A DNA stretch of 64,000 nt. Source: Tomocerus qinae (Eukaryota > Arthropoda > Collembola > Entomobryomorpha > Tomoceridae). The notes below the pieces were generated by a model. It ran no database searches. It was not told the DNA's origin and saw nothing but the letters and a program-made list of their open reading frames with translations. The translations under genes were made by a program, and so were the position numbers. The stretch covers positions 97,960,001-98,024,000 of the forward strand of contig CM034546.1 in the NCBI GenBank assembly GCA_020055645.1, written 5' to 3'. This document shows positions 5,801-50,478 of the stretch, piece by piece. The first letter of the stretch is position 1, and each line of letters opens with the position of its first letter.

Positions 5801-7744
5801 CACCTTGAACTACATTTCCCTTTCCACTTGCACCAAAATGAGACATAATGACTATCAAAGCCTCTTTTCATATTGTGATAACGTTTTTTTGCTTTCACAG
5901 GATATTTATTTAAGAATCACCCGAATATAAGCCATTTCTAAGGTCATTGATGTGTATATTTGAAAAATTGTAAATATTTCATGAATGTAACCTACATTCA
6001 CTGTTCTAACCCCCAGGTTTTGGTCTATTCAAAACATGTTTATTCTATAGACAAGATATTTAATGGAACATTGACATGATGAGAAATTGGGATGACATTT
6101 TTGTAAATAAAAGTTGCAAGCTTTTGCATAGTAATATATTTTTATTAGCAATCTACGATGTTTCAGCTCTTCCAGCACAGACTGACGTTAGTTCTGTGTC
6201 TTTTTATTTGAGGAAATAAATGTTTACCTACAAAATTATGTAACAATTTATCGTATACAACATTCTACATATTTACATTTACAATAGCTACTCAGCTAAT
6301 GGTACATTAAACTTATTCTTTTCATAATTTCTTACATTTACATCTAATTTACCTCTACAAAGTCAATATAGTACATTACTAAGCCAAAATTTATAACATT
6401 ATTATAGTTAAACATCCAAAAAGAGATCTGTGGTTTTCCTGCAAACTGCAAACGTAACAGAGACCACCTATTATATTGACTCTATATTTAGTGTTAATAA
6501 ACACTGATGGTGACAAAGAAGGTTAAAAATTCTTTATCCAAACTCGCAAGCTTTATTTTCAAGGACATCAATCAAAATGCTATTCAATAATGTTTGTGAC
6601 TGTAACAGAGAATTTCGAAAACCAAAATACCACAATAGTGTACGATAAAACACGCAAGTACTAAAGCACTGTATTCAATACATCAATTAAATTCATGTAT
6701 AGTACTTTGATCTAATTCTTAAAGACTAATTAAGTATTGTGGTTTCTCAGAACTAAATTGGCTCAGTAATAATCAAGCTAAGGTTCATAAATTGAGTACT
6801 TGTTCTTGTTGCTCATGCAAAGATTCTGGTTTTGAATACATTTTTGTATAGGAACTATTATTACTAATAATACATCCAGATTCTCATAACATTTCCACTC
6901 ATTAATAGTATTTATAATTCTATTTCCGCTACTTTGATCTAACCACTAGAATATCATTTAAGTAATATCATAATGTACGCACAGTGTATTTGTATTCACA
7001 CCTAACATAATGGAAGACCTTAATTCCATTGACTACAGACCTGTATCCTGTTCCGCCCGCACAATTAACATGAGACGTACCGTTACATCTAGAGCTATTA
7101 TTAGATAAACTATTTACATAAATTAATAGGTTATAGGGTTTACTAATGAATACCGAGTAATACAATTTCTCAGCCCCACTTGTGAATTTCCATTTTGGTT
7201 AGTTTAACTTACTGCGTATGCGTATTATAATTCATAACATTAATGGTTAAAGTGATCAGTCTGACAGTGACCGGTAGTTAGTGAAAACTTAAAACTTAAA
7301 ATATTTAAATGGAACATTTACAGGTGGTAAAATATTTTACGACTTAAATCAATAGGTACTGGTGAAATATATTAGATTGGTTAGGTATACATGACACTTT
7401 GTGCCTTTGTCTACATTGACTACTTTTGTCCATACCAGAAAATAAAAGCGATCTGAATCAATCTATGGATTATTTGATTCTCAGGTACACACATTCACTC
7501 TCTTGGTTAAATACATTATTATGTGTATTGATAATTCAAACAGTATGACTAGGAATACAATATCTAGTTAGCTACTATTGTAATTAGTGTAATAGTTACA
7601 CATACAATTATCATTAGAGGGTATAAACAAGTCTTATCAATTGAAATATGGTCAACAAATAACTTAACGATGCAGTCATAGTTCGCTGGTTAGTTTCAGT
7701 TTGTTCTTATTATAAATTGTAATAAATTTAAGCTTGCTCACAGT
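2823..7744. other. Intergenic, no gene recognised
   Basis: AT-rich sequence with only short open frames that lack conserved motifs and good flanking splice sites. It holds a small direct repeat near 3530-3570 (a 13-bp unit, GATATACTGACAA, about three times). I see no RNA gene. It lies between the starts of two minus-strand genes and probably includes the promoter of the F-box gene just above 2822 and the 3' UTR of the receptor gene just below 7745. Confidence 0.5.
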
Positions 7745-9525
7745 TTATAAAGTAGTTGACACTTGATCACATATCATGAGATAAGTTTGGCCTTGATGTT
7801 GCTTTCTTGCTTCTCCATTGTTACTATTACAGCACTGGACGGTTGTCTGCGTTGGTGAAATTGCTAAAAGACGAACGTTTGAAGCACAACTTGTCATTTC
7901 TCCTTTGTTCTGTTGCTGGTAAAATATATTCATCGTTGGAGGCCTTCCAGTTATTTTCGTCACCATTGAATCCAACAGTCTCAGTACAGCAAGACGTATC
8001 TATAAAACAAAAACACATACTTATAATACACACATGATTATTTATTTCAGTATTTTAGGCCCACATCTGTGTACATGATCTGCTATTCTAGTCCCAAGTT
8101 CATGGTTAACAAATGACAAAGCTATATAGTAGGTTTCAGGGACACGTCAGTCAATCAACTAGGTACTTCCCGAATCATTTTGAATGACCTTCTTTCACGC
8201 TCTGAATGAACGGAAGTTGCACTGATTACTAAAGCCAATGACTGGAGGCAGAGACAAATTTGACGGGTAACTAACATTTTCACAACTTTAGCTTCAAACT
8301 ACACAAAGGAGAAAGTCATATTTCTCCTTCATGTTTCATAAATGCAACTTTCCCTGAGGTTTCACTTGTTTTCAAACAAATATATGTGTATATACATAAA
8401 ATAAATAGTTACTGACTTATATATTGCTTTAATACTGCTACTCGACTTATACTGTGGGCACTTTTTGTTTCTCTCCAGTTTTCTGAATGAAAATAATTGT
8501 TTACATTTTGGTAGTCTGGTATATAAATTAACTTTATTTTGCAACAAAAATGGAATATAGGAAAACTGTAGAAGTAAAGATAACGTGGGAAAAGAAAGTA
8601 TAAAGTTGATTAACAAAGTATTATTAACAAGGGAAAGTTAACTTTCCCCGAATGAATACTCTACAGACAAACTACAGTGAGAAGTAAAAATACTTACCTC
8701 TGAAGAGCGATAACCGTATAACCATGGATTAAGTAAACTACTGAAAACAATTGGTATTGCAGCAAAAATCCTAGATTTGTGATCCATAAGAATTTCAGTT
8801 CCGGCAAAGACGTCAACGATGGCACAGACTTGAATGGGTATCCAACACACAAGTATAGATCCCAAAATTAAAGCGAGAGTAACACCATAACGATGATGAT
8901 GGACAGAAGTGTCAGTGATCTCACATATCCCGCCATTGTTAAGGGAAATCTCAACACTGTAAATTGCTCTGGCATGGCTCCTGGCCACAACGTAAATGTA
9001 ACCGTAGCTGAGAATGGCAGACAGGAGACAAGGTCCATAGAGGAAAACAGTGAGCCAAGCAATGACGACTTCCGCTCCAGCTTCCTTGACGAACAGAAAT
9101 GGAATTAGTCCAATTACGAGAGCGTAGATCCAGCAGGCGAGCACGAATTTCTGGACGTAGGAACTAGTCACAAAATGATTGTACCTCAGAGGTTGAGCTA
9201 CAGATGTAAACCGGTCCAGGGCAATTGCAGCAACGGAAAGTAACGAGGCAGAACAAAATGTTAGGAGAATGGCATAGGGGCCAATGCAGAGTGGTACAGT
9301 GCAATAATCCTCTTGGTCAGTGGGCAATGACCAGTCGACGACCACAGCCACAGGGAGAAATAAACCAAAGCCCAAGTCGGCAGTCGCTAAAGATACTATC
9401 AAAGAGTTCGAAGGTGTTCTCAAACGCTTGAAACGAAACCAAGAACTCAAGATGAGTAGATTTCCCACGACAATTATAGGACTGGACAAAATGAGAAAAA
9501 TACACAGTGTTGAAATGAGCACCAT
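7745..9525 (-). CDS. Class A (rhodopsin-like) GPCR, adenosine-receptor-like, two exons
   Basis: Seven-transmembrane receptor of about 360 residues in the plasma membrane. Exon 1 (9525-8698) encodes all seven helices; it ends GAG|GTAAGT in phase 0. Exon 2 (7999-7745) starts after TTTTATAG in phase 0 and gives helix 8 (YRSSE+IRLAVLRLL) and a hydrophilic tail. Motifs: GN in TM1 (residues 21-22), LATAD in TM2 (46-50), the disulfide Cys about 80, DRF for DRY at the TM3 end (104-106), PLRYN in loop 2, CWIP in TM6, and NPWLY in TM7 for NPxxY. The TM3-TM4 stretch (AIALDRF...PLRYNHFVTSSY) resembles adenosine receptors, which also have very short N-termini. The open frame extends about 17 codons further 5', but only with GTG, so the start is set at the first in-frame ATG. 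An upstream coding exon is possible. Ligand not provable; an amine-type receptor is the alternative. Confidence 0.87.
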
Positions 9526-12500
9526 AGTGTTGCCCGTTAACGTCCTTAGTTTAAAAAGTCGTCCATTCACATTCACTATTCACTGCGTCGGCCTAATTTC
9601 CTAAGTGCACATACTGGATAAACTTTCATTCAAGTTCTAAAGCTTTATGTCGGCTTGTTTAGACTATTTCCCTTTAGGGCCAGCAATCTGCAATAAACAG
9701 CAAGTATACAAACAACGATAATTAGTTTTCATCAAGGGCATACTAAAATTAGGCATCTGTATTTGTTTTGATGCTAAATTTTGCTAAGTACTGTAAAATG
9801 TAAGTTAGAACCCTTTTCATACTACTTACAGATATCATACATTACATAGAATGAGCTAATTGTTCTTTATTGCTTTCTTAATTTAAGCCATGCAAAGCAA
9901 TTAAAATATTAAGTTTGGCAATTATACGCAGTAACCATTCAAGCAGATAAATCCTCGGCAATTTGGAACTATTTTATACTTGTTTTACCATTTTCATTAG
10001 ATTCTTTGATTTATTCCAAATTAGACGCAAGAGAGCTCTTTGGTAGAGACTTTCTTTTAAAATAGTTACTGGGATATTTTGTGGGCAATTTCTATTATTA
10101 TCCGTGCATGCTTTTTCTTGGCAAGTCTACAAATTCAAGGTTGCATATATCCTGAATGCATATGCACGTAGTATAGAATGTACGCAAATGCATATAATGT
10201 ACTTTGTAGTGTTTCGATCAACGAATAGAGCATAATAGTATCACACAAGTTTACTTTGCGTCCCTGCTTCCAAGAAAAAGTTTGCAGGAGACTGTTCAGG
10301 AGACTTTAGTTTGGCTACTATTGCTACTTTCTTATTTTAGTGTCTCGTCTCGTCGTCTTTCGCCTGTTCCTTTGACTCTGAATGTTCCTTTTGCATCAGC
10401 TACTCGATATTCTGGATGTGTGAATAGAAAGAAGCGCGGAGGCTTACTTACGATACTAAAAATGCTTTCCCTTGACTTTCTCTCCAATGCTTAAGAGAAA
10501 GAGAAAGCAACACTAAACTTTTCCCTAATACAGATATACAGAAAAGACTTTAAATGAGCGAGAGAAACCAGAGGCTTTGAGATAAAACTTAAGAAAAAGT
10601 TCCCTGCAGGGTTTGCATACAAATTATACCCAAACCTCCTCCTTTTGGGATCCACTCCTCAAGGTACCACACTATCTTCCCCATCTATCTATAGATACTC
10701 ACTGGCCTGGGAAAAATTGCAAACTTTCATTTTTATTTAGCCGTAGAGGTTCTATCACTCTAATAATTACATCCATACTCAGGATATATCTCTTTCTAAT
10801 AGCATCCCCAAAATTCAGTTATGTTTTCCTTTCATTCAATTAGCTTCTTTTCAGTTTTCCTTATGGATAGGTTTCCCGCTAGCTTTAGAGCCTTAATTAC
10901 GATTAATATCAAAATAATGGTAGCTGAGAGAACTTTTTTTACCTTCAAGCATTTTTCTATCTTCTGTGTCATGATAATGCAAACTTTGTAAACACCCACA
11001 TAAGATTTACTCTCAATATTGTCTTTCCAAATCCATTTATCTTACCTATGTCACAAATGCTACTTTCTGGAGGTCTCCAACCGAAATAGAAGGTTCAAAG
11101 GTAATTGGATTTGTTCAGCACGATTACATATTTTAGCACATTGCTCAAGAATCCTTCACACGGCTGGTTTTAAGTTGTAGTCACATTTCAGTAATTGTGG
11201 CACTCTAGTAAATAACGTGATTATTGGTTTGACAATAATGGTGCAGATCTTTGTGCATGCATTGTGTATTTAATTACATTATACATATTAATAAGTTCCA
11301 CAAGTTTGCTGTATTATTTTAAGGTATAATTTAAATGTATATTTCAATTTGAATAGTGAAACCATATTGAGAGCAGTTCATTAAAGCTACAATGTGGTCT
11401 AAATGGGTTGGTTAAAAAAGTTGACGTTTGTCAAATAAAGAGAACTGTAAAGGAATTCACTTCAAAAGGTTTCTTTCTTGAGTTGGTAAAAGGTTGGTTC
11501 AGTTGCTCTATTTCTAAAAGCAATTTGGCCCTTTTCATTCAACTCAAATTAATTTTTATTCATTCATTCACACCATATAGATTGAAAATCACTTCCACGT
11601 TCGTAGCCAACAAAGACTTTGGAAGTCTTTGACTTTAGGCTCTTTTTGTCTAGAAGAGTTACGAGAATTCCGAATCAAAGTTGAGAGAGTGAGTTGTGCA
11701 GAATAATTCGATTAGAAGTAGTTTTCCATTTCATGCGTGATGAACTCTATCATAGAAATTCAACACCCAACTTTTCCCATTTCCTAGCACTACATTTAAT
11801 CTACCGTATGTACCAAATTTTAACTCGTAGGCTAATATAATTGATAATGTGCTTTTAGCCAGGCGTAGCTTCCAATGATTCACATTTACAATTTTATATT
11901 CACTTTACCTAATTACATTACATACTCTCAACTTTCATTATCCTTACTACAACTTTGAAAATCTTTGTTTACACTCTTAATGAATACGCCTTAACTATCT
12001 AATAGATCAGAATTTCTTCGATCTCAAGAGTAATCTTATTTAATCTAGCAAGTTGTTCCCCTGTCCAACTTTATAAAGTACATGAAAATACTTTTGAAAT
12101 TTCTTAATGAGCCATTTATTTTGTCAAATTGAAAAACTTTTCTCTTAAACAAGTCCAGTCCCCAGGCAATTTTGATGAATAAGAAAAAAATGGACAACAG
12201 ACGACAGCAATCAGGAGCATTTGGCTAAAAAAATCGATAAAGAAGATCATTAGAGGAATTCTGGAACTTACTTGGAAAACATTAACTATTGGCTGTAAAT
12301 TGTTTACGTCTGACTCCATGAAGTGTCTATTGGTTAGTCCTGGTGGTAATTATATTACATGGTCTATATAAATTATAGTGAAATGTTGTATTTGGTATAC
12401 AAAGAGATATAGGAGAAGTCCAAAGCTTGTTTGAAGGATAAATGTCACGAGTAAGAATTCAATGTTGCTTAATAATCCAGTCAGGGACAATATTCTCCTA

Positions 12501-36800: not shown

Positions 36801-39162
36801 GAGCCAGTGCCCCCTAGATACCCCTTAAAAATATTCATCCTTGAGGAGAATTTCATCGTAGGGAGGAACCCTCATGTTACCAAAACCAAAATTACAGCAT
36901 AGGATAGCAAAAAGCTATAGGTCGGGTGAATTTCCTACTGACTCACCAACCCACTAAATGTATCAATGAAGTAGACATCCGTTTAGGAATGGAACACCTC
37001 GACTGTTTTGCTCTGCACGCTTCAGTGACATTTCTTTGAAAGAAAAGCTCTTGTTTGAGTAGCCAAGCAGGCTAAACGGGCTTTCACTTTCCAGCTTGTC
37101 ATTTTCACTTCTTGGATAGTGGAGTGAGTCAGGAAGTAGCGTACAGGTTGCAAATTGCAATAGAGTAAGACCAAAGTGGAGTTCCTCGACAAGGCGACTG
37201 TAACTCTGCCGATAAAGTGCACATATCGTGCTCCATTGCATTCCTCCCCAGCTATATTGGTCTACTGGTGGCAACTGATATTATAAAACCGATTTTCTGT
37301 CTCGTCAGCCTATTGTACAATTGTACATTCCAAACAAACATAATGTTATATAATATGTATCTACTAGTCTGAAGGAATGGGGCATTGCATGGATTCTGAC
37401 CTGACGTCATTCATGATCCATATACTGAATTGCAATACTTTTATCAGAACGTCCTACTGTAAACCATTTGATATATAAACTAGGATTGAAAATTCTTTCT
37501 GCCTAGGTATATCTGTTATGGTTTAGCTCGGTGTTGTGTAAATTGTCGATAAGGTGAGGAAATACGGGTAGTTGGTAGTAACTCAGGCCAGACGGCAAAT
37601 TCTATGACAAGGACAACATACTTTCTGCATTATTCTCGACGGTTTACTGTGAGGGTGTTAACAGGACTCAGGCCTTACATTTTAATGCTTCATAGATGTA
37701 TATTCACTACGCAAACTATTTATACGCTAACTTTCACATTGTAGTGTGCTGTGCTACATACACGTGTAGAGACAGGGATGGAGCACGGGACAGTGGAAAA
37801 CACTTTGAGGTTAAATAGGAATTTGGACTTAATCTACTTCAATTCTCTCCTCAACTTTATACATTGCTAGCTACATAATGCATACTTATATAGAATGACA
37901 AACAAATGCCGCTGCTTGCTCCAGACTTAAATCACTAGAGCTCTGCACTTCTCTCATTCCAACACCCATTCACTTGCTTTTCCCTATGCACACACACACT
38001 CTTTTTATAAACCACCTATTTGACTTTTGCTACATCACACTGCTTCTGCTATGATATACTTTACCTCTCTCTACATAGTAAGGAAGTGCATATATGTAAC
38101 AGGCCAGCAAAGATCCGGGCTGTAGAGCGGATGAACTAACCTACCTAAGAATTCTACTCGCAGCCCTAAAAACGATGTTTAAACGTTAGTATATATTATA
38201 GTAACGTCTTAGTCTTAGATCTAATTAGATCAGACCATTTTTGTTTTGATATGTTTATGTTGTGATTTTGTGGTCTGACTTTACTATAACTGAAAAATAA
38301 TGGTATTAAAGAGATTATCTTGATGAATTAAAAACTAAACACTACAATTTTATGTTTATGCACATTTTGTAGCAATGTTGTCAAAGAGGTTGTGAAAGCC
38401 ATATTACGTAAACATGACCAGGATTGGTTCGACAGCCTGATTCTTCACTGGCCTACCACATGCAGGTACTATGTATTTATATGGACCAGAAAACATTTTT
38501 GTTTGAAATAGCAATCCTTCTCCGTCCCTTCATGAATTCGTATCTTTCATGCAGTATGCTCTGTATAAATTTGTATAGAGTGTGGTTTATATGTATGTTA
38601 TGCTTTCTCGCTACAGGCTTTGATAGATTTCGGTTTGAATACATATACAGACAGGATCAACTCAGACTGATTGTGAGTCCTGCTTAAAATATACTTTGTT
38701 TGTCATAACAGTTTATACGGTTCCTTTCATATTTCACTCTCGTACAATTGTAAAGAAAGACCATTGCACTGCCGACTCCACTGTGGCGGTTTTCGTAAGA
38801 TAAGAATTTGCACTATTTGCACAAGGCTTACCCTCAGTAGTGTATTAATGTAATAGCAATGTAGTTCCAAGCATTTGTATGCAGCTTACCACGAGTTCTG
38901 CTTCATTCATAATGCGAAACTATGTTATACAACGGATTGAACGGAGAAACTAGGATGATAAAAATATTATTGGCGTTTTGGTACACTTTCAATACGAATG
39001 TCAATCTATATGGAGAGGAATCAATAATTACCAATCTTTACTTACTAGCTAATAACACGTATCATCATCAGATAGTGCTAACCCTGGTATACTTTTGAAA
39101 TAGGTGATAATGATCACTCTGATACGTTTATTTTAATTACCAGGAATGTCAATAGCGAACTG
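30860..39162. other. Gene-poor interval, no confident gene
   Basis: AT-rich, short ORFs only. Near 36620-36840 there is a stretch resembling a degraded interspersed repeat (CCGTAGCCAGAAAAT, then GTGCCCCCTAGATACCCC), a style of sequence common at the ends of old animal transposons; it is not classified. A G9 run occurs near 35425. Nothing else supported. Confidence 0.35.
39159..39162. repeat. Left 4-bp target duplication of the LTR element
   Basis: ACTG precedes the left LTR and ACTG follows the right LTR at 50475-50478. A 4-bp duplication is normal for LTR retrotransposons of the Ty3/gypsy type. Confidence 0.75.
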
Positions 39163-39618
39163 TATGAGGAGTGCCATCCTCATCGGCCCTTCACCAACCA
39201 CGTCATCATCATATCACTAATATTCTAATTCACCTCCCAACTCCCACAGAGTGTTACTCTGGGAATCTGTCATACTACAGCCAGTCTCAGCCTGGGTGTT
39301 GACCAGTCTTTGTCGAGCTGTTGGAAGGTCTTGGTCGTGTTGCTGTGTGGATCACGGTGCGACTTGAGTTAGTCCTGGTCGGGAATATTCTGTGTCTGGG
39401 AACTTAGAGTAAATCGGATCGAGTCATATTTCAGTTACAATAAACTTATACATTTGCCTGTGTCCAAATCCTATTGTTCTCTCGTGCAGTCATTTCCTCA
39501 CATTCCGATCATAAATCCTGGCATCAAAGGTGAACTGAGTACGAATCATGGGTAGAGAAGGGGTAGTTAGTGCTACAATTCAGTCTAATCAGCTATCTGG
39601 TGACCCAGACTCCTCATA
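39163..39618 (+). repeat. 5' LTR
   Basis: 456 bp, same length as and, by eye, identical to the 3' LTR. Short inverted ends TATGAGGAGT / ACTCCTCATA. Contains AATAAA (within ACAATAAACTT, near 39438), a likely polyadenylation signal. Confidence 0.95.
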
Positions 39619-39620
39619 AA

Positions 39621-39638
39621 TGGTGCGAAACCCGACTC
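39621..39638 (+). other. Primer-binding-site candidate
   Basis: TGGTGCGAAACCCGAC starts two bases after the 5' LTR. TGG complements the CCA end of a tRNA, the canonical position. I do not assign the tRNA species. Confidence 0.6.
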
Positions 39639-41760
39639 TTTTTCATCTTTTCGGACTGCCAAATTTATCTTCGGTTTTGGGGGTGACGGAGTGCTGCTGG
39701 GGCGAGAAGAGATTCGAGAAGGATTGTGTGTGAAGACTTGGACAAAGTGAATACTGCAAGTTGAAACGGAATAGTGCCGAAGAACTAGAACCTACATTAG
39801 TGCTACAAGTTTCGGAGAAATTTGTGTGTTCGGGAGCTACTTGGGAAAATTCGGAGAATTGGACTTTGAAGAAAAACTGGATTCGGGAACTGGACGCTTC
39901 GTCGTGTGTTTACGGAGATTTTGCTTCGGGGGACATGTAACTGGTATCGTTCCAATATTTTATTATTTCTTACATAGCTAAAAAATTGATTTTATTATTT
40001 TCAAGTGTCTAAGCACACAGTTCAAGATAATTTTTATTTTAAAAGAAGCCATGCAATATAATTATTATGGGCAAGTAGTAAAACTTTTTTTTGAAGTCAA
40101 GAAAGCAAAAAAAATACAATATCTATAATTATCGACTAAATTCGGATATTTCACTCATTCTTGTTCCGATTCGGATCATTTCATTCAAAATTTTAAGAAT
40201 TGGAAAAATTATTTTCATTAAATATATATTCTATAATATTTGATGGTACGTGTGTATTGCGTTGAAACAAAGGCACGTACAAGGACATAAGGTCAAATTA
40301 TGCATTCATGGTCTTCTGGGAATATTATGCTAATCAACTTTGTCGTTGAGTCCTAGAGGAAGCTTACTTGGAGTGTTGACCGCTTATCTTCGCTGCGGGC
40401 CAATCAGAAGCTCTAAATCCATCAGGGAAACATAAGTTGCAGTAGAAGAATATACGGAAGAAAATTGTGGTGACCAGCGACATTACTGTGTTGACCCATT
40501 AACAAGACGAAGTTAGGCATATACGAGTGTTCTAGTAGTCGTAAACTTCTCGGAGAGAATCTACATATATGATCGTGTGTAATACGGACTATCTATTTGC
40601 GTGTGTTTCATGCTACATGGATATCTAATATAGCATGTGTGATTACAAGCTATTGCGAGCATAGCAATATAGCATGTGTGATAACAAGCTATTGCGAGTG
40701 TAGCAATATAGCATGTGTGGTTACAAGCTACGACGGATACGCCGAGTGGTATGGAATCAGTTGATTTTAATATTATGGAAATAGTCAGTAACATACGAGT
40801 AGAAGCACATATTTTTATCAATATTGAAGTATAGATAATTTGAAGTCATATTCATAGTATTTTTACTTGGAAAATTTAAGCACAGTATGAATAATTACTA
40901 TAAGCAGAGATATTTTAATTTGGAAAGATAAATTGTTAATTTTGGGGACCAGCACGACTTGGGGAAAGACTCAGCAGTTCGACAGACTCATCGGGGGTTT
41001 TATGGAAATTAGGGACTAGCACAGGGAATTCTGAGCAGTAGTCTAGTACATTGTAAGCAATATACAATTTACAAGTTGGACAGTAATATTATAATCGGTC
41101 AGAATATTCAGAATTTTTCAAGGAAAGACAAGATTAGGCAAAAAGGCTTAGTAAGTTCTGAAGAAGGATATTGACATAAGATTATTGGAAATTTTAATAT
41201 ATTAACGTCAGAGACTAAGGGAATGTCACCGGCGGATAAAGACTTATGTTGAAGTTAACTGTGTTGGTGATAACACAAATTTTACTTAGGGGTCAGGGAA
41301 AACCTCTTGACTGTAAATTCAGTACTCGGAATTTTGGGAATAAGCTGTATGCAAACGAATCAAGAATTAAGGAAATAGTTGAATATCGTTGTTAGAATAA
41401 ATTCTAATCAGAATAGTATATACTCTACCACCCGAAGTAAGTCAGAAAGAAGACAGAAAAAATTTAAATTAATCGCTCATTGGATTATCGAAACATACTT
41501 TACTTAGAAGAAGCATTTATATATACTTTAACATAGAAGATTAATAGAATTCAAGACATCTTTAAGCTTAGAAACGCAGTAGAAACATGAATATTTCGTT
41601 GATGGGACCTTCATCCTTTTTGACTAAATACTTGGATCATTTGCTTAAAACTATTAATGCATACTGACGTTCTCAGAAGATTTAAGAAGGAAGCTTTAAG
41701 AGTATAGTTTGCTCAGAGGTCAATTTTTGTTAAGTTGGATTTTAATACGTCGAGAGAAAA
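39639..41760 (+). other. LTR-element leader, no ORF
   Basis: About 2.1 kb between the primer site and the gag ATG with no long open frame. It includes the 39-bp tandem repeat at about 40630-40735. The length is unusual for a retrotransposon leader. Confidence 0.5.
40630..40735 (+). repeat. 39-bp tandem repeat, about 3 copies
   Basis: The unit begins ATAGCATGTGTGATTACAAG and continues CTATTGCGAGCATAGCAAT; the third copy is partial. It is the first of several tandem arrays in the element's interior. Confidence 0.8.
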
Positions 41761-42369
41761 ATGGAATCTATGTGCGGATGTGGGGTACCTACACCTGAAT
41801 TTAAAGACAATGCTTCAGTATATTTAAATGACTTAGAACTTTATTTTAATGCCATTGGGATACCTAAAGAGAATTGGTTCGACTACTTACCTTATGCGTT
41901 AAGGGGAAACGATTATGAGTGGTTCAAGCATACTATTAAGCAGAATTTCACGTGGGACGTATTCAAATTACTTTTCCTAGAAAGACATAACTTCTATCCA
42001 AATAGGTATAGGAAGATGAGAGAAATATTGTTTCGAAGACAGAGAGAAGATGAGAGCATTGAAGAATTTGTTTATGATTTCGTAAATTCAAATAGCCTAC
42101 TTTTTCCAAATGATAGTGAAGAAGTAACAGTTAAGAAATGTAGGGAGGCATTGCACCCTAGGTTGAAAATATTTACGTGTAGCTTAACAGAGTACACAGT
42201 TGATGCTTTGATTGAATGCGGGAGAATGATAGAAAGAAGTTTAGGAGAATTTACGCGTGAATTCCGTGGAATAGATAAAAACCTACAGCAAGCCGTAACA
42301 GAAGCTCGCCTGAGTAAAAGGGACCGTGTGCACATTTTGGTTGTAATAATAATAGAAATTTTATTTTGA
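41761..42369 (+). CDS. Gag-like capsid protein of the LTR element, truncated
   Basis: ATG at 41761, about 202 residues. Residues about 15-170 match a retrotransposon Gag fold: YLNDLELYFNAIGIPKENW, YALRGNDYEWF, W-x2-FKLLFLERHNF, RRQREDESIEEFVYDF, and a final helix with LTEYTVDALIECGRMIE. Gag forms the cytoplasmic particle that packages the RNA. No CCHC zinc knuckle follows. The ORF ends in a hydrophobic, out-of-frame-looking tail (HILVVIIIEILF) just where a knuckle would begin; the +1 frame there reads KGTVCTFW, as if a zinc knuckle (CxxC) had been broken. So the protein is full in its capsid part but lacks the nucleocapsid. Its last about 60 bp are copied at 46731-46790. Confidence 0.85.
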   Translation: MESMCGCGVPTPEFKDNASVYLNDLELYFNAIGIPKENWFDYLPYALRGNDYEWFKHTIKQNFTWDVFKLLFLERHNFYPNRYRKMREILFRRQREDESIEEFVYDFVNSNSLLFPNDSEEVTVKKCREALHPRLKIFTCSLTEYTVDALIECGRMIERSLGEFTREFRGIDKNLQQAVTEARLSKRDRVHILVVIIIEILF

Positions 42370-42496
42370 TTACTATTATTAAAGAGATTATTAAAGTAAG
42401 CACTAATTCAAACTAGATTATTTAAATCATAATCTATACTATATTATAATTTCCGGGAGTTTGTATTTATGTCTGTGTGTGTGTCCACCCCCAGTT

Positions 42497-43190
42497 TCCC
42501 TATGTTGACACTTCCAGAAGCAGTAAAACCCTATGTTGACACTCCTAGAAGCAGTAAAACCCTATGTTGACACTTCTAGAAGCAGTAAAACCCTACGTTG
42601 ACACTTCTAGAAGCAGTATTGATTATGTTGACACTTCTGGAAGCAGTATTAATTATGTTGACACTTCTAGAAGCAGTAAAACCCAACGTTGACCCTTCCA
42701 GTGGCAGTAAAACCCTGCGTTGACACTTCCAGTGGCAGTAAAACCCTATGTTGACACTTTAAGAAGCAGTAAAACCCTATTGTTAACACTTCTAATAGCA
42801 ATAAATACCTATGTTGACACTTCAAGAAGCAGTAAATCCCTATGTCGACACTTTTAATAGCAATAAATCCCTATATTGACACTTTAAGAAGCAGTAAAAC
42901 CCTATTGTTGACACTTCTAATAGCAATAAATACTTATGTTGACACTTCTAGAAGCAGTAAATCCCTATGTTGACACTTCTAATAGCAATAAATACCTATG
43001 TCGACACTTCTAGAAGCTTAAAAAGCCTATGTTTAAACTTTTATTTGCAGTAAAACCCTATGCTGACACTTCCAGAAGCAGTAAATCCATATTTTGACAC
43101 TTCCGGAAGTAGTTAATCCATGATGACACTTCCAGAAGTAGTAAAACCATATGTTTTCACTTCTAAAAGCAGTAGTAGTACATTGTTATG
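42497..43190 (+). repeat. 31-bp minisatellite array, about 22 copies
   Basis: Unit about CTATGTTGACACTTCTAGAA followed by GCAGTAAAACC (31 bp). Copies vary (CTAGAAG / CCAGTGG / TAATAGC versions) and lose order toward the right. It lies inside the Helitron-like element. Confidence 0.92.
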
Positions 43191-44135
43191 TTAATTAGGA
43201 AGGTGCGGTGAGGTTGAGACTACATGTTGATGAAACCATTATGTTGATTTGGAAGTGACGGGTACGTGGAGACTATACATGTTGTTGAAAAATATATTAT
43301 TTTGGTAGTGGCTCTGGGACATTGAGACTATACATGTTGTGGAAAAAATATATTATTGGGGTACTACAAGGCGATGATACAATTATATTATTTTGGAAGG
43401 GGCGGGGACATGGAGACTGTTGTTGTTGAATGTTGTTGAAAAATTATATCATTGGGGTAGTGGCGGGGAGGTGGAGACCATACATGTTGATGAAACAATT
43501 ATGTTATTTGGGTAGTAGTGGGGAGAAAAAATTGTTAATTGGTCTACGAGGTAGAGACTACATGTCGATGAAAAATTGTCAATTGAAAAGGGGTGGGACG
43601 ATGGATACTACATGTTGATGAAAAATTGTTATTTGAGAAGAGACGTGGAGGTGGAGGCTACATGTCGGTGAAAAAGTTATTTGGGAGGGGCGGGGAAGTG
43701 GATACTACAAGTCGCTGAAACAATTGTTATTTGGGAAGGGGCGGGTAGATGGAGGGTACATGTCGGTGAAAATTTTCGATTTGGAAGTGGGCGGGGTGGT
43801 AGAGACTTCATGCCGATGAAACAATTATGAATTTTGAGAAGGGGCTAGGAGGTGTAGGCTACATGTCGATGCAAAATTTGTTATTTGGGAAGGGGTCGGG
43901 AGGTTGAGGTTGTAAGTTGGTGAAAAGGTTGTTTTTTTGGAGGGGGCGGGGAGGTGGTGACTACAAGTCGCTGAAACAATTGTTATTTGGGAAGGGGCGG
44001 TTATGTGGAGGTTACATGTCGGTGAAAATTTGTTATGGGGAAGTGGAGGCTACATGTCGATGAAAAATTTGTTATTTAGAAAGGGGCGAGGAGGTGGATG
44101 TTACATGTCAGTGAAAAAGTTGTTAATTGGGAGCC
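43191..44135 (+). repeat. G-rich degenerate tandem array, unit about 50-60 bp
   Basis: About 17 diverged units built from GGGGCGGGGAGGTGGAGACT, then ACATGTTGATGAAAAATTGT and ATTTGGGAA. Much more G-rich on the plus strand than its surroundings and variable in unit length. It follows the 31-bp array directly within the Helitron-like element. Short open frames across it are a by-product of the repeats. Confidence 0.88.
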
Positions 44136-44344
44136 CTCTCCCAATTATCACTACTTACTACTATCATTACCAATTATCAGGGAGGTCGAGACTACTGAAT
44201 GGATACGGATTGGCCGAGGTTGTATAGCAAACTTTGGTATTATGAAATATCAGGGCACTTGAGCTTGGGAATATTCATATTTGAATCTTTAATTTTGCTT
44301 TATGTGAGACAGAGCCCTGTCGTAGGACGGGCTAACCAGCTAGT

Positions 44345-45205
44345 TCAATATAAAAATCAACCGAAAAGCAACATTGATTATTGACTATGAAAATCAACCG
44401 AAAATCAAAATTGATTAATGTTGACTATGAAAATCAACAGAAAATCAAAATTCATTAATGTAGACTATGAAAATCAACAGAAAATCAAAATTGATTAATG
44501 TTGACTATGAAAATCATATGAAAATCAAAATTGATTAATGTTGATTATGAAAATCAACAGAAAATCAAAATTGATTAATATTGACTATGAAAATCAACAG
44601 AAAATCAAAATTGATTAATGTTGACTATGAAAATCAACAGAAAATCAAAATTGATTAATGTTGACTATGAAAATCAACAGAAAATCAAAATTGATTAATG
44701 TTGACTATGAAAATCAACAGAAAATCAAAATTGATTAATGTTGACTATGAAAATTATATGAAAATCAAAATTGATTAATGTTGATTATGAAAATCAACAG
44801 AAAATCAAAATTGATTAATGTTGACTATGAAAATCAACAGAAAATCAAAATTGATTAATGTTGACTATGAAAATCAACAGAAAATCAAAATTGATTAATG
44901 TTGACTATGAAAATCAACAGAAAATCAAAATTGATTAATGTTGACTATGAAAATCAACAGAAAATCAAAATTGATTAATGTTGATTATGAAAATCAACAG
45001 AAAATCAAAATTGATTAATATTGACTATGAAAATCAACAGAAAATCAAAATTGATTAATGTTGACTATGAAAATCAACAGAAAATCAAAATTGATTAATG
45101 TTGACTATGAAAATCAACAGAAAATCAAAATTGATTAATGTTGATTATGAAAATCAACAGAAAATCAAAATTGATTAATGTTGACTATGAAAATCAACAG
45201 ATATT
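44345..45205 (+). repeat. 40-bp satellite array A, about 21 copies
   Basis: Unit AAAATCAACAGAAAATCAAA + ATTGATTAATGTTGACTATG (40 bp), nearly perfect. Variant units (CATATG/TATATG in place of CAACAG, then TTGATTATG) recur 240 bp apart (about 44510 and 44750), so six-unit blocks were duplicated as a higher-order repeat. Confidence 0.95.
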
Positions 45206-45250
45206 TAATCTTAATTGATTATGAGTATTAAAATCTAAATCGGTTAATAA

Positions 45251-45419
45251 TGATTATTTAAATTTAAAGGAAATCAAAAAGTGGAAATTTGACTATAAAA
45301 TTGAATAAAAATCCAAAATAGATTTTTTCCATCTTCTAATAGTTATTTTCCGGTTTAATTTGCTTTACTATAAAATCTCAAATTTGGTAGAAGCGGATTG
45401 AAATATTTTATACTATCCC
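45251..45419 (+). repeat. Tail module, copy 1
   Basis: About 170 bp of non-tandem sequence (TGATTATTTAAATTTAAAGG ... AGAAGCGGATTG ... TACTATCC) that recurs at 47454-47621 with few differences. It follows the 40-bp array in both places. Confidence 0.85.
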
Positions 45420-45440
45420 TACTTTACAGCAAAAACTCGA

Positions 45441-45983
45441 ATGAGAATCACTGTCAATCAAGAAGATACTAGAAGAATGAAACGAAATTGTCGTTCTCGG
45501 ACTTGGTTAACTATATCACATTGGGCAGCGCGAAGGTTGCGGCGCCCAATGAGGGCTTGGATTTTGATATTGTTAATTTTGTCCACTCAGACAGTGCAAA
45601 AGGGGCAGTGTCTGATGAGGAGAAGCGAAGTTTGCGTGAAAGAGGCGAGTATTGCCAATAACTTAAGCGAATTTGCAAGTAAGGACATGCTGTGGCCGAA
45701 CGTATTTCGGGAGAAGTATTCTCAGAGGGTTACATCAGCAGAATTGTTGTATTACTTGAGGCTAAGAAAGTTTAAGTTTAAGTATGTATTTAGAATTTCC
45801 AAGGTGCATAAGCTCAGAATACATAGTCAGTTAAAGGTAAAGTTAGGATACAGAAGGAGGTTATTACAGCATAACTTGGTAATAGAGGCTAACGATAAAC
45901 GTATATTAAAGTCAATTATATTCATTGTAACATTACAGAGACTAATACAGAATCAGCATTGTATTTTGAAACTTATTGTTTGA
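45441..45983 (+). pseudogene. Frame-broken gag remnant
   Basis: The longest frame here (180 codons from 45441) has no recognisable domain and is arginine-rich. Another frame reads more like a retroelement: KLSFSDLVNYITLGSAKVA, then VSDEEKRSLRERGEYC before a stop near 45664. The last motif resembles the (E/D)EEKxxLRxxGxC segment found just before Gag zinc knuckles. I infer a decayed 3' part of gag. The 45441 ORF is probably not translated. Confidence 0.45.
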
Positions 45984-46369
45984 ATACTATGTTGTAACTT
46001 TAACTTTTGGTTTGGAGGGATGCAATTGTAGCAACTTTTCTGGTTAAGGACAAATTCAATTTTGTTATTGCCAAATTAATTTTCTTCATAATTTATTCGC
46101 AAGTGAATAAAGTATTATCAGCGAAAGTGTTAAAGATTGCTTAATAATTGTTAGTAAACAAATTATACCGTTAGTGGAGTCAGATGGACTCATGCAGCTC
46201 ATGCTCAGCAGTCATGAGCGATGTTAAATACAATAATATAAATAGCATGTATTACCTTCAAATAAGTTAAAACTATTGTAAACACAGTCAACACAATGTG
46301 GTTTCACTTTAATACCAGTCAACACAGTGTGGTGACTAGAAAATATGTCAACCCAATGAGGTTACGCTA

Positions 46370-46640
46370 CTTTACTATGTATAACAGTGAGGTTACCACA
46401 CTTTACTATGTATAACAGTGAGGTTACCACACTTTACTATGTATAACAGTGAGGTTACCACACTTTACTATGTATAACAGTGAAGTTACCACACTTTACT
46501 ATGTATAACAGTGAGGTTACCACACTTTACTATGTATAACAGTGAGGTTACCACACTTTACTATGTATAACAGTGAGGTTACCACACTTTACTATGTATA
46601 ACAGTGAGGTTACCACACTTTACTATGTATAACAGTGAGT
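46370..46640 (+). repeat. 31-bp tandem array B, about 9 copies
   Basis: Unit GTGAGGTTACCACACTTTAC followed by TATGTATAACA (31 bp), almost perfect for nine copies, then diverging to 46730. It is related in style, and in its TTTACTATGT core, to the array at 47905-48540. Confidence 0.93.
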
Positions 46641-46730
46641 TGACGCTACTTTATTGCATGTGTATTTAGTGAGGTTACCATACTTACTGTGTGTAATAAT
46701 GAGTTGACCATACTTTAATATGTGTAAACC

Positions 46731-46790
46731 TACAGCAAGCCGTAACAGAAGCTCGCCTGATTAAAGGTTAACGTGTACACATTTTGGTAG
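46731..46790 (+). repeat. Duplicate of the gag 3' end
   Basis: AAACCTACAGCAAGCCGTAA and CAGAAGCTCGCCTGA match the gag ORF at about 42280-42340, then TAAAGGTTAACGTGTACACA matches the following bases with changes. This copy is out of any gag frame. It marks the start of a second copy of the module. Confidence 0.85.
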
Positions 46791-46934
46791 ACGAAAAGTA
46801 CTCGCACGTAGCACAAAACCGAGCGTATGGATTTTGATCAAACTTTCAGAATTGGGTCTTTATATATGTAGCTATGACATATTAAAAATTCAGACATTGA
46901 TATTATAAGGAAACGAAGCTATATTATTTGAAAA

Positions 46935-47440
46935 ATAAACAAAAAATCTAAATTGATTAATGTTGACTATGGAAATCAACAGAAAATCAAAATTGATTAA
47001 TGCTGACTATGAAAATCAACGGATAATCAAAATTGGTTAATTTTTACTATGAAAATTAACAGAAAATCAAAATTGATTAATGTTGACTATGAAAATCAAC
47101 AGAAAATCAAAATTGATTAATTTTGAATATGAAAATTAACAGAAAATCAAAATTGATTAATTTTGAATATGAAAATCAACAGAAAATCAAAGTTAATTAA
47201 TGTTGACAATGAAAATCAATACAAAATCAAAATTGATAAATGTTGACTATGAAAATCAACAGAAAATCAAAATTGATTAATATTAACTATCAAAATCAAT
47301 ACAAAATCAAAATATATTAATATCGACTATCAAGATCAATGCATAAGAAAATATATTAATATTGACTATCAAAGTCAATACATAATGAAAATATATTAAT
47401 ATTGACTGTTAAAATCAAGACAAACTTGAAACAGATTCGT
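46935..47440 (+). repeat. 40-bp satellite array A', about 12 diverged copies
   Basis: Same unit as 44345-45205 (AAAATCAACAGAAAATCAAA...) but with many more substitutions, increasing to the right. It is therefore an older or less homogenised copy. Confidence 0.9.
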
Positions 47441-47453
47441 TATTTTAATTTAA

Positions 47454-47621
47454 TGATTATTTAAATTTAAAGGAAATCAAAAAATGGAAATTTGACCATA
47501 AAATTGAATAAAAATCCAAAATAGATTTTTCCATCGTCTAATAGTTATTTTCCGGTTTAATTTGCTTTATTATAAAATCTCAAATTTGGTAGAAGCGGAT
47601 TGTTATATTTTATACTATCCT
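47454..47621 (+). repeat. Tail module, copy 2
   Basis: Near-identical partner of 45251-45419, following the second 40-bp array. Confidence 0.85.
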
Positions 47622-47639
47622 GCTAACAATTTATAGGAA

Positions 47640-47904
47640 ACGCCATTGAAATTTTTAGTGTCCATTTAATGCCAAATTTTCACTTTGACTATCAAAATGA
47701 ACACAAAGTGAGCGCGCGTTATCTCAGTAACCAATAGACCGATTTACTCCCAATTCAATAGGGATCGTCAGTGGTCCATAGGCATTGTTTTTGCCAAGTT
47801 TGGTCAATATCCGTTATTGCTTTCGAAAGTTATCGTGGGGACGGACGGACGGACGTACGGACAGACTGTGTGGTTCTATAAGCTGCCTTATTCAGGCGAG
47901 CTAA
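47640..47904 (+). repeat. Interspersed-repeat-like segment with GGAC run
   Basis: Non-tandem sequence with AGTAACCAATAGACCGATTT and TTATCGTGGGGACGGACGGA(C). Conserved stretches ending in GGAC/GGAC-AGAC runs are common in invertebrate dispersed repeats. Possibly another small nested element; no ends defined. Confidence 0.4.
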
Positions 47905-48540
47905 AAATGGGTTGACTATATTTTACTATGTGTAAAAATGGGTTGACCATATTTTACTATGTGTGTAATGATGGGTTGACCATATTTTACTATGTGTAAC
48001 AATCGGTTGACCATATTTTACTATGTGTAACAATCGGTTGACCATAATTTACTATTTGTAATGATGGGTTTACCATACTTTACTATGTGTAATAATGAGT
48101 TGACGCTACTTTACTATATGTGTATTAGTGAGGTTACCATACTTTACTGTGTGTAATAATGAGTTAACGCTACTTTACTATATGCAATATGTGTGTTGAC
48201 GCTACTTTAGTAGATATAATCAATGTGTTGACTCTATTTAGATATATGTACCTATGTGTTGACCCTACTTTACTATGTGTATGGAGTGTGTTGATGCTAC
48301 TTTACTATGTGTATAGAGTGAGTTGACGCTACTTTACTATATAAATGCAGTGGGTTGACGCTATTTCAATGTCTTTAATAGTGGGTTGACGCTATTTCAA
48401 TGTCTTTAATAGTGAGTTGACGCTACGTTACCATGTATAAAATTTGCAGTTACACTACTTGACTATGTTCAAAATTGTGGTTACCATTCTTTAATATTTA
48501 TTATGCCTGGTTACAATACTTTACTATGTACTGTATAAGA
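47905..48540 (+). repeat. About 31-bp tandem array C, about 20 diverged copies
   Basis: Units of GGGTTGACCATATTTTACTATGTGTAACAAT type, grading into GTTGACGCTACTTTACTATG versions. It shares TTTACTATGT with array B and GTTGAC with the arrays at 42.5 and 44.3 kb. Confidence 0.88.
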
Positions 48541-49274
48541 CCTACCTTAAGGGTACATTAGACATATTCTATTACAGTTTACCAATCCTATTATAATGAC
48601 ACCATTTTAAAAGGTTTATTATGCTTAATTACCAGCGTTTACAGTGTCTATGAAAACAACTACTGAATATACGTGGGATTACGGATGCATCGGAAGATGG
48701 CATAGGTGTGTTTACCTAAGTATAAGGACATCTACATTTCTATTAAACGAACATCAACTTACCATCCATTTCAGCAAACAATAACTATATAGTTCCTTTA
48801 CGAAGATGACTAGCAGCTATGAAAGACAGCTTATAATTCTATAATTTTTGCGGGAAATCGGAAGTCTCATCACATATTACAACTATTTTAAACCATCAAC
48901 TGGAAACAGGATCAGCCATCTTTGGAGGAAAACATCAAAGAACCAGTTGAATTAGACTTACAAATACGCGAGATAGCGCAGACTTGTGTGATCACAATTT
49001 AACACCTAGTGTTGGTAAAAATCAGACCTTTTGGCAAATAATTTACCATCGACGATGTCGGCAAACGAGAGTTAGCGTATCACAATTTCAAAACCTACAA
49101 TCTACTAATTTTTACCCTTCGAAACTATACAACAAAAATTCAGTGGCAAAACTTCAACGAAATCGGGATCGACAGCAAAATTGTTATTTGAAAATTTCTT
49201 TACCTCTCTTTTTTGCAAAAATCTTGCTGCATCTACGACAACAATAAAACTACTAAACGGAAGGAAACGTCTAT
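48541..49274 (+). other. LTR-element interior, no ORF recognised
   Basis: About 730 bp without tandem repeats. One short open frame (48984-49247) lacks recognisable motifs. No integrase or RT motif seen in either direction. Confidence 0.4.
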
Positions 49275-49480
49275 AGAGATGTCATTGAACGAGTTATGGA
49301 CAACTACACTGATGTCATTCGAACGAGTTAATCTTGGAATACAACTACATTGATGTCATTCGAACGAGTTAATCTTGGAATACAACTACATTGATGTCAT
49401 TCGAACGAGTTAATCTGGGACAACTACACTGATGTCATTCGAACGAGTTAATCTAGGAGAACACCAACACCGATGTCAAT
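49275..49480 (+). repeat. 41-bp tandem repeat, about 4-5 copies
   Basis: Unit GATGTCATTCGAACGAGTTA followed by ATCTTGGAATACAACTACATT, with the last copies diverged. Confidence 0.85.
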
Positions 49481-49990
49481 CGAACGAGATCATCAGGAGA
49501 CAACGGACTACGTCGAGACAACATCTTCAAAAATCCTTTCTTACCTGCGAGTCTAAAAACTATAACTTGGGCAAATTGCTCAGCTTACCCAAAATTTTTG
49601 ACTATATGTACATACATTTAATTTCACTTTCAGTTAGGATATATCAGTTTACAGAAACACTAACACACTAAAACTAATTAAGACTATTGTTAAAATAATT
49701 ATGAACATTTGTATAGCATGATATAAGGACACATTTCATTGTTAAAGGCAATTTGATTATAATTTATATATTATGTAATGTATGAATACCATTATTGAAC
49801 AATTACACAACATGCACGTATTACACAATTATATACCACAATTGCATTCGTGAACTATTGAGAAATATGTTATGTATAACGAATTATTGATAGATTTTGT
49901 TTTATGTATGAATTTATGTAAGACGGGGACTGGGAAAATTATTTTGATCTAATTTAACCCTATCATTGTTTTCCTACGTCCACCACAGTC

Positions 49991-50018
49991 GTTAGGGGGG
50001 ACTTTGTCGGGGGGAGTA
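49991..50018 (+). other. Polypurine tract candidate
   Basis: GTTAGGGGGGACTTTGTCGG and GGGGAG directly precede the 3' LTR, the place where plus-strand priming occurs in LTR elements. Confidence 0.65.
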
Positions 50019-50474
50019 TATGAGGAGTGCCATCCTCATCGGCCCTTCACCAACCACGTCATCATCATATCACTAATATTCTAATTCACCTCCCAACTCC
50101 CACAGAGTGTTACTCTGGGAATCTGTCATACTACAGCCAGTCTCAGCCTGGGTGTTGACCAGTCTTTGTCGAGCTGTTGGAAGGTCTTGGTCGTGTTGCT
50201 GTGTGGATCACGGTGCGACTTGAGTTAGTCCTGGTCGGGAATATTCTGTGTCTGGGAACTTAGAGTAAATCGGATCGAGTCATATTTCAGTTACAATAAA
50301 CTTATACATTTGCCTGTGTCCAAATCCTATTGTTCTCTCGTGCAGTCATTTCCTCACATTCCGATCATAAATCCTGGCATCAAAGGTGAACTGAGTACGA
50401 ATCATGGGTAGAGAAGGGGTAGTTAGTGCTACAATTCAGTCTAATCAGCTATCTGGTGACCCAGACTCCTCATA
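50019..50474 (+). repeat. 3' LTR
   Basis: 456 bp, identical by eye to the 5' LTR; followed by the ACTG target duplication at 50475-50478. Confidence 0.95.
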
Positions 50475-50478
50475 ACTG

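Follow-up and report, generated by a model that had tools for sequence, protein, structure and literature searches.

Within a 64,000-nucleotide stretch of the Tomocerus qinae genome (contig CM034546.1, positions 97,960,001 to 98,024,000; hereafter, the window), positions 39163-50474 are an LTR retrotransposon with identical LTRs, a target duplication and an ORF for a Ty3/Arc-type capsid, in which pol was undetected. We think it likely that the element belongs to a gag-only, non-autonomous Ty3/Gypsy-type LTR family that is TR-GAG-like. The family is probably long-lived, making its own capsid and borrowing pol in trans: given that gag is kept and that no gene for copying enzymes was detected, these enzymes are probably borrowed.

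The two LTRs of the window copy differ at 0 of 456 positions, ACTG is present on both sides, and a PBS-like site and a polypurine tract were located (Table 1), in agreement with the first-pass annotation. Paired LTRs, target duplication and polypurine tract identify an LTR retrotransposon, and the Ty3/Arc-type Gag capsid in combination with a 4-bp duplication places it with Ty3/Gypsy. The inference of a recent insertion in an animal genome is also borne out: the LTRs are identical, close copies have 0-1 LTR differences, and an mtDNA-like COX1 reads under genetic code 5.

Table 1. Features of the window element (positions within the window).
Feature	Position	Strand	Basis or remark
Target-site duplication ACTG, left	39159..39162	+	flanks 5' LTR
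5' LTR, 456 bp, termini TATGAGGAGT...ACTCCTCATA	39163..39618	+	identical to 3' LTR
PBS-like TGGTGCGAAACCCGA, 15 bases	39621..39635	+	2-nt gap after 5' LTR
Native 39-bp array, 2.7 copies	40627..40730	+	TRF; also in L004, L005, L007, L008
gag ORF, 202 codons, Arc/Ty3-type capsid domain	41761..42369	+	Pfam, PDB Arc capsids, sister frames
Insert X1 of another abundant repeat (X), 3' end missing	~42281..45422	+	absent in gag-bearing sisters
Gag C-terminal region remnant, basic	45423..45980	+	corresponds to C-terminal end of sister frames
Native 21-bp duplication, 2.0 copies	46043..46083	+	TRF score 52
Native 31-bp array, left part	46357..46726	+	TRF
Insert X2 of X, inside native 31-bp array	~46727..47902	+	carries 40-bp array
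Native 31-bp array, right part	47903..48431	+	TRF and genome search
Native 41-bp array	49300..49504	+	TRF
Polypurine tract GGGGGGAGTA	50009..50018	+	directly before 3' LTR; same in L004-L008
3' LTR, 456 bp	50019..50474	+	identical to 5' LTR
Target-site duplication ACTG, right	50475..50478	+	matches left copy

Genome-wide, at least 45 LTR matches are related to this element, the window's two included (best 40 of 215 candidates scored). Eight LTR pairs of the family were identified, counting the window, and a ninth, more divergent pair occurs in L027; further copies with the same LTR and recurring native interior, for which the first-pass annotation proposed a search, are thus present. The LTRs differ at one position in L004 and at none in the window, L005, L006, L007 and L008, and each copy has its own 4-bp duplication. 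The five close copies other than the window uphold the suggestion that the family is mobile and, judging from their sequences, the young copies imply its mobilisation. An assembly artefact is rejected as the origin of the native structure, as native parts recur at sites with differing duplications. A divergent subfamily with a similar appearance was also observed.

Four of the five close sister copies encode one intact Gag frame (stop to stop, 619 codons in L004, 682 in L005, 682 in L007 and 651 in L008) and no other separate long ORF. These four sisters, which keep the whole frame, illustrate a gag-only element better than the window copy, in which gag breaks off at about codon 173. The first ~173 codons of the window ORF are native and its tail extends into insert X1. 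The ORF matches Pfam Retrotrans_gag with an E-value of 9.6e-5 and a score of 23.0 bits, slightly under the curated cut-off of 24.1, and solved Arc capsids in the PDB with a best E-value of 4.8e-7. Thus, a Gag domain, as required of a TR-GAG, is present, and its earlier description as capsid-type holds. The longer piece of the C-terminal remnant is 82-89% identical to L004, L005, L007 and L008, and the remnant has no Pfam matches. Pfam detected neither a zinc knuckle nor any other RNA-binding motif in Gag. Compared with the PDB, a four-copy Gag profile matches Arc with an E-value of 0.0015, more weakly than the window capsid alone; positions 395-458 of the whole-Gag profile match RNA helicase at E-values of 0.67 and 0.79. 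In L009 the gag frame is broken by a stop into pieces of 308 and 277 codons, and neither matches a Pfam family. The window capsid, modelled from its single sequence with AlphaFold2, reached a pLDDT of 43, too low to be usable.

None of the 14 forward non-gag stop-to-stop pieces of at least 55 codons in the window interior matches a pol family in Pfam. This profile scan confirms the earlier impression that there is no pol motif, and we reject a hidden pol in these pieces of the window interior; a decayed remnant might still lie in shorter pieces or on the reverse strand. The sole listed Pfam match in these pieces, to NEXCaM_BD (E 0.0065), is below its cut-off. In L005, likewise, all 14 forward non-gag pieces of at least 55 codons lack pol families. 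RT, RNase H and integrase, which a TR-GAG does not carry, are therefore lacking from the forward pieces of this size in both copies. On both strands of L004, L005, L007 and L008, the single non-gag frame of at least 120 codons is a 161-codon frame that overlaps gag in L008. The region from gag to the 3' LTR in these copies spans only 2.6-2.8 kb and consists partly of arrays, and there is little room for pol.

Relatives of gag elsewhere in the genome separate by their surroundings. RT was located within 6 kb downstream of 0 of the 40 gag matches with at least 42% identity versus 36 of the 110 with 35% identity or less (best 150 of 2332 RT candidates; p 2.5e-6), and integrase within 8 kb downstream of 0 of 40 versus 53 of 110 (best 150 of 890 candidates; p 8e-10), where the 40 include fragments of the same elements and thus are not independent. 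In the 36 distant cases gag is 1.6-2.2 kb upstream of RT. One of the 12 matches at 42-45% identity was examined as DNA, as were two of those at 57-69% (L009 and L028). At L035, where gag identity is 45%, a 1.9-kb region beginning 1.66 kb past the start of the gag match has no frame longer than 97 codons.

The exact 15-base PBS occurs at 12 sites in 334 Mb, all in or beside the family (sequence around 11 of them was read directly), compared with none for the reversed control; no element outside the family has the exact PBS in these 334 Mb. Two tRNA-shaped patterns for the PBS primer gave no matches genome-wide, and a tRNA scan of the window and 31 loci (L004-L034) recovered no tRNAs. An autonomous partner sharing LTR or primer site had been envisaged; no pol-bearing helper of this kind was found among the best-scored LTR, RT and integrase candidates and the 12 PBS sites.

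These results bear on the alternative that the copies arose recently by deletion from an autonomous element, one absent from the assembly or from the best-scored candidates, with Gag selected in the parent or regained by recombination. We consider this unlikely. Such a parent might have escaped searches in which the best candidates were scored (LTR 40 of 215; RT 150 of 2332; integrase 150 of 890), and gag is importable, as L005 at least is a mosaic (see below). However, neither RT nor integrase, among the best 150 of each, is linked to any gag match of at least 42% identity, and the exact PBS was found in no element outside the family. Furthermore, L009 shares parts of the 3' region and arrays and has no detected pol, yet its capsid dS to other copies is 1.4-2.0; the loss of pol therefore probably predates the split. 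It is possible, and we propose it tentatively, that this is an old gag-only lineage rather than a recently defective one: pol-less, capsid-bearing LTR groups, down to 42-45% capsid identity, may have persisted in this animal by means of their own selected capsid, with polymerase and integrase borrowed from Ty3/Gypsy elements whose capsids are no more than 35% identical. If so, these groups would act as capsid makers in the manner of satellite viruses, recombining with one another within particles.

Capsid dN/dS was compared in 15 pairs, 14 of which have dS above 0 (dS is 0 for L005/L007). Values of 0.10-0.19, with bootstrap upper limits below 0.5, were obtained for 11 of the 14, comprising 8 of 9 pairs among L004, L005 and L007-L009 and 3 of 5 involving the window. 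The value for L004/L008, 0.59 (0.28-2.41), is indistinguishable from neutral, and those for window/L004 and window/L008 are 0.29 and 0.33 (limits up to 0.62-0.64). The middle region of Gag is looser (0.55-0.68, and 0.97 for L004/L008). These ratios show purifying selection on the capsid domain, which fits the earlier suggestion that the element is packaged by its own Gag. From 1051 to 5050, 15 of 16 tiles of L005 resemble L007 at 99% or above; from 5051 to 7050, 8 of 8 tiles resemble L008, at 99.6-100%. L005 is thus a clear mosaic, as expected from template switching.

Some young copies lack gag. L006 is a 3.7-kb copy without gag and with 0/456 LTR differences, and gag-less L010 has an LTR identity of 99.5%. 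Both would fit the LARD category (at least 2 kb, no coding domain), from which the window, L004, L005, L007 and L008 are separated by a capsid domain. Recent movement of L006 and L010 despite their lack of gag shows that Gag is not required in cis. The family could accordingly be a plain LARD-like passenger in the Gag of a helper, its own Gag kept for another role such as restriction of the helper or Arc-like RNA carrying, a reading we regard as doubtful. It would account for the window copy, which has identical LTRs and yet a cut gag, and it accords with the Arc-like character of Gag. However, most of the young copies bear gag (the frame is whole in 4 of 6), and gag-less copies could receive Gag from their sisters; thus, they are no proof that Gag is dispensable for the family.

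Under the favoured reading of a gag-only family that borrows pol, LTR-driven RNA would be translated to Gag, which would package family RNAs, including those of gag-less L006 and L010, with at least two per particle. An autonomous Ty3/Gypsy-type element would supply protease, reverse transcriptase and integrase in trans; the genome has many such elements, with capsids no more than 35% identical to that of the family. Template switching among co-packaged RNAs could then produce mosaic copies.

TR-GAG elements are defined as having only GAG, or GAG and AP, between their LTRs (PMC6022998), and one of them, AT5TE33540, is reported to transpose in Arabidopsis ddm1 (PMC8704663). As these sources describe them, the plant elements share with the Tomocerus family a single Gag ORF within an LTR element, the lack of pol, mobility and a helper presumed to act in trans; unlike theirs, the host here is an animal. 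AT5TE33540 derives from ATCOPIA63 and is very similar to a family member that is potentially autonomous (PMC8704663), whereas the Gag of the Tomocerus family is of Ty3/Arc type and no such full relative was found here. Also in contrast to AT5TE33540 as reported there, gag matches without RT or integrase downstream (best 150 of each) extend to 42-45% identity. The papers listed in literature searches on TR-GAG were all on plants, and no animal gag-only LTR family was named in the titles and abstract openings listed. The first-pass annotation described gag-only and large non-coding LTR elements as known mainly from plants; 38 non-coding, tandem-repeat-bearing LTR families have already been described from an animal, Culex quinquefasciatus (PMC3286476). 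According to that description, these resemble the Tomocerus family in having young LTRs, PBS, polypurine tract, target duplication and internal tandem repeats with no master copy found, but they are without any coding sequence, whereas gag is kept here, and target duplications are mostly 5 bp in the tabulated families versus 4 bp here.

Arc is a host gene. The family resembles Arc capsid genes in its capsid domain, by sequence, and differs in that the domain is within a mobile, LTR-flanked element. The family offers an example from an animal of Gag and Pol functions that appear to be divided between elements, with selection acting on the capsid although no pol is detectable in the family. It makes testable whether the Gag of a non-autonomous element acts in cis or on behalf of the whole family, and what helper provides pol.

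TRF identified arrays at ten places between the window LTRs, one of them being 2.0 copies of 21 bp, which agrees with the "at least seven" of the first-pass annotation. Five of the ten are in X1 and X2 and, by TRF coordinates, make up ~2.7 kb of the 4.0 kb occupied by arrays. X1 carries arrays of 31, 53, 51 and 40 bp, takes the place of ~0.93-1.08 kb of gag found in sister copies and is absent from all four gag-bearing close sisters; X2 reaches further at its 3' end than X1. The 205-bp 5' end of X2 has at least 40 full-length genomic matches at 98-100% (40 of 40 scored, best 40 of 1139 candidates), and repeat X is abundant elsewhere in the genome. X1 together with a deletion appears to have cut gag in the window copy, and X2 to have split the native 31-bp array. 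That array occurs at 12 genomic loci (13 of 13 candidates scored), all in or beside the LTR family, so this array, the one native array tested, showed no spin-off of satellites. Ten arrays between the LTRs might suggest that all are native to an element that spawns satellites, as the earlier terms "minisatellite-packed" and "generates satellite DNA" implied. This is very improbable, and we reject a single native satellite block, given that half of the arrays belong to an inserted repeat that is absent from the sisters and abundant elsewhere, and that all 12 loci of the native 31-bp array are in or beside family members. The native 31- and 41-bp arrays are positioned like the minisatellites of soybean Gmr9/GmOgre, between coding region and 3' LTR; those are reported as polymorphic, and differ in being part of a plant element and in having about one tenth of their copies outside it (PMC3305785). 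Pieces of X1 also occur in L023, on the opposite strand and ~2.5 kb from an LTR fragment.

The first-pass annotation of the window element rested on identical LTRs, a 4-bp duplication, PBS-like (primer-binding-site-like) and polypurine positions and a capsid ORF, all of which are real (see table). The search it proposed for further genomic copies with the same LTR returned a family. At least 45 LTR matches occur in the 334-Mb Tomocerus qinae genome (40 of 215 candidates scored), and 31 stretches were fetched around LTR matches outside the window. Five full copies are close to the window copy (L004-L008, with 1, 0, 0, 0 and 0 LTR differences, respectively). L009 and L010 form a divergent subfamily whose LTR pairs show identities of 100% (425 positions) and 99.5% (436 positions), respectively; AACT flanks L009 on both sides, whereas L010 shows no clear duplication. 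A further, more divergent LTR pair is present in L027. Five of the ten unpaired LTR matches with ends displayed (L011, L013, L017, L018 and L020) carry the same 4 bp on either side, the pattern expected of solo LTRs. Contig C16 and the chromosome-size contig C1 carry similar stretches (L014, L015) around one 5' LTR, and the left flank is identical too, which would fit a duplication or a haplotig.

Features of the window element and of related copies in the same genome
Feature	Location	Detail
LTR retrotransposon	window 39163-50474	two identical 456-bp LTRs, 10-bp inverted ends
Target duplication	both sides of window 39163-50474	ACTG
PBS-like 15-mer	window element	two-base gap after 5' LTR
Polypurine tract	window element	
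Capsid ORF	window element	202 codons
Repeat X insert X1	window 42281-45422	
Repeat X insert X2	window 46727-47902	
Arrays in X inserts	window, starting at 42498, 43186, 43548, 44349, 46932	
Arrays native by position	window, starting at 40627, 46043, 46357, 47902, 49300	
Flanking duplications	L004; L005; L006; L007; L008	CACT; GTAG; AATT; CTAC; ATAG
Frame	L006, at 5' LTR	123 codons
Second half of split gag frame	L009	277 codons
Overlapping frame inside gag	L008	161 codons
Frame, minus strand	L010	124 codons

The capsid domain comes first in a single stop-to-stop frame of 619 codons in L004, 682 in L005 and L007, and 651 in L008; gag is absent from L006 (3.7 kb) and L010 (3.5 kb). Between the end of gag and the 3' LTR lie 2.6-3.0 kb in the five gag-bearing sister copies, partly filled by arrays. 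Other frames found in a survey of L004-L010 (120 codons or more) are tabulated. Pfam identified Retrotrans_gag under its cut-off and a weak, unrelated NKWYS match, and nothing else, in the window copy, L004 and L005. No pol family was identified in any of the 14 forward non-gag pieces of at least 55 codons in the window interior, nor in the 14 such pieces of L005. Sub-cut-off matches were weak: NEXCaM_BD in both, and apicomplexan microprotein, formate dehydrogenase and kalirin SH3 models in L005 alone.

Selection on the capsid was estimated from 172 codons (NG86, 300 bootstraps) in 15 pairs, 14 of them with dS > 0. In 11 of these 14, dN/dS lies between 0.10 and 0.19 and its upper limit between 0.19 and 0.47; examples are L004/L005 (0.17, 0.08-0.35), L005/L008 (0.17, 0.08-0.33) and window/L005 (0.15, 0.05-0.39). 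All pairs of L009 with five others give 0.10-0.15 at dS 1.4-2.0. Weak or uninformative are L004/L008 (0.59, 0.28-2.41), window/L004 (0.29, 0.12-0.62) and window/L008 (0.33, 0.18-0.64), and L005/L007, with dS of 0, yields no informative ratio. Outside the capsid, pairs with enough changes give 0.55-0.97 in the middle region and 0.36-0.56 in the C-terminal part. L009 has parts of the 3' region in common with the other copies and no detected pol; thus, pol was probably lost before L009 split off. Capsid selection probably acted on elements already without pol, the main caveat being import of gag by recombination.

An autonomous partner sharing LTR and primer site had been envisaged; no helper with the same LTR or PBS was found among the matches listed. 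The window capsid (173 aa) was used as query, and the best 150 of 252 genome candidates were scored: 5 are 87-100% identical, 23 are 57-69%, 12 are 42-45% and 110 are at most 35%. Linkage was assessed against the best 150 of 2332 RT and the best 150 of 890 integrase candidates. Within these lists, none of the gags in the three more similar groups has RT or integrase downstream. In the group at or below 35%, RT follows in 36 of 110 (35 at 1.6-2.0 kb) and integrase in 53 of 110 (51 at 2.9-3.6 kb). The contrast gives Fisher values of 2.5e-6 (RT) and 8e-10 (integrase) when each fragment of an element is treated as a separate case. Among the matches listed, the nearest gags with a downstream pol domain are thus distant ones. 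In L035, 1.9 kb beginning 1.66 kb past the start of a 45%-identical gag hit, no frame exceeds 97 codons. The PBS 15-mer has 12 genomic sites (reversed control, 0). The window and the fetched copies of the family account for 11 of these, and the remaining site precedes a gag of 66% identity by 2.1 kb; two patterns found no primer tRNA for the 15-mer. Three gag-RT-integrase copies on contig C1 (G000 C1:51210539, 51218869 and 51227199) lie exactly 8,330 bases from one to the next, which points to LTR elements arranged in tandem.

The family includes mosaic copies. Compared tile by tile (250 bases), L005 matches L007 at 96.8-100% identity over 1051-5050 (15 of 16 tiles at or above 99%). From there to about position 7050 it matches L008 at 99.6-100% (8 of 8 tiles), and its identity to L007 falls to 71-94%; the LTR tiles of L005 are closest to L004. 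The window copy and L005 are identical over 318 of 318 leader bases and only 89% identical before gag. Template switching between co-packaged RNAs would explain these mosaics, and gene conversion could also produce them. In L005, the change from L007-like to L008-like coincides with the region of the native 31-bp array, a possible hot spot of template switching.

As judged from sequence, then, copies without detectable pol inserted recently, gag was under selection, gag-less copies moved too, and mosaics exist. We infer that the family's Gag forms particles, which would package family RNA, including that of gag-less members; protease, RT and integrase would be taken from an autonomous Ty3/Gypsy element. 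The core of the first-pass annotation, a gag-only animal element mobilised in trans, is well supported at family level, although we infer the trans step.

Its picture of a minisatellite-packed element, by contrast, is not supported as a property of the element itself. TRF placed tandem arrays at ten places between the window LTRs, and five lie within X1 and X2, two inserts of an abundant other repeat, so that the packing is mostly the second repeat's doing. No counterpart turned up in L004-L008 for most of 42370-45422 or for 46728-47901, and the gag frame and 31-bp array are continuous in sister copies where the window carries inserts (L006 is without gag). X2 splits the native 31-bp array into the parts starting at 46357 and 47902, and X1 is accompanied by loss of ~0.93-1.08 kb of gag. 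X1 and X2 start with identical sequence; X2 carries the 11-bp sequence AGCTCGCCTGA ~22 bp from its 5' end and again, inverted, at its 3' end. All 40 scored matches (of 1139 genome candidates) to the first 205 bases of X2 are full-length, at 98-100% identity. Repeat X also has inner 40-bp arrays, and its anatomy recalls Helentron/DINE-1 (PMC4067079). The 31-bp array (47903-48431), the native array searched, has 26 genomic matches at 12 loci (13 of 13 candidates scored); 11 loci correspond to the window copy or to fetched copies of the family, and at the remaining one the array follows a gag of 68% identity at a distance of 2.3-2.6 kb. There is therefore no sign of this array founding satellites elsewhere in the assembly, and the proposed generation of satellite DNA by the interior was not seen for it.

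Gag-only non-autonomous elements are known, for example HeT-A among non-LTR elements. The anatomy of the family fits TR-GAG elements (only Gag, or Gag plus AP, between the LTRs) as defined in PMC6022998. Transposition of a TR-GAG is documented in Arabidopsis ddm1, and that element has a potentially autonomous close relative (PMC8704663). In Culex, 38 LTR families are non-coding, carry repeats and lack a master copy (PMC3286476). No animal gag-only LTR family was found among the matches listed in the literature searched, which is weak evidence of novelty because most subscription papers lie outside that search.

Also present in the genome is mitochondrial COX1 with adjoining frames open under code 5 (L001, G000 C1:36670928), inside the 140-Mb contig that also holds the window, with ND2 before and COX2 after it as judged by eye. 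The code points to an invertebrate host, probably an arthropod given this gene order, which is of arthropod type. The stretch may have entered the nuclear genome recently or reflect a join made in assembly. In the window, a 313-codon frame on the minus strand (8641-9579) matches the rhodopsin-type GPCR family 7tm_1 (E 7e-29).
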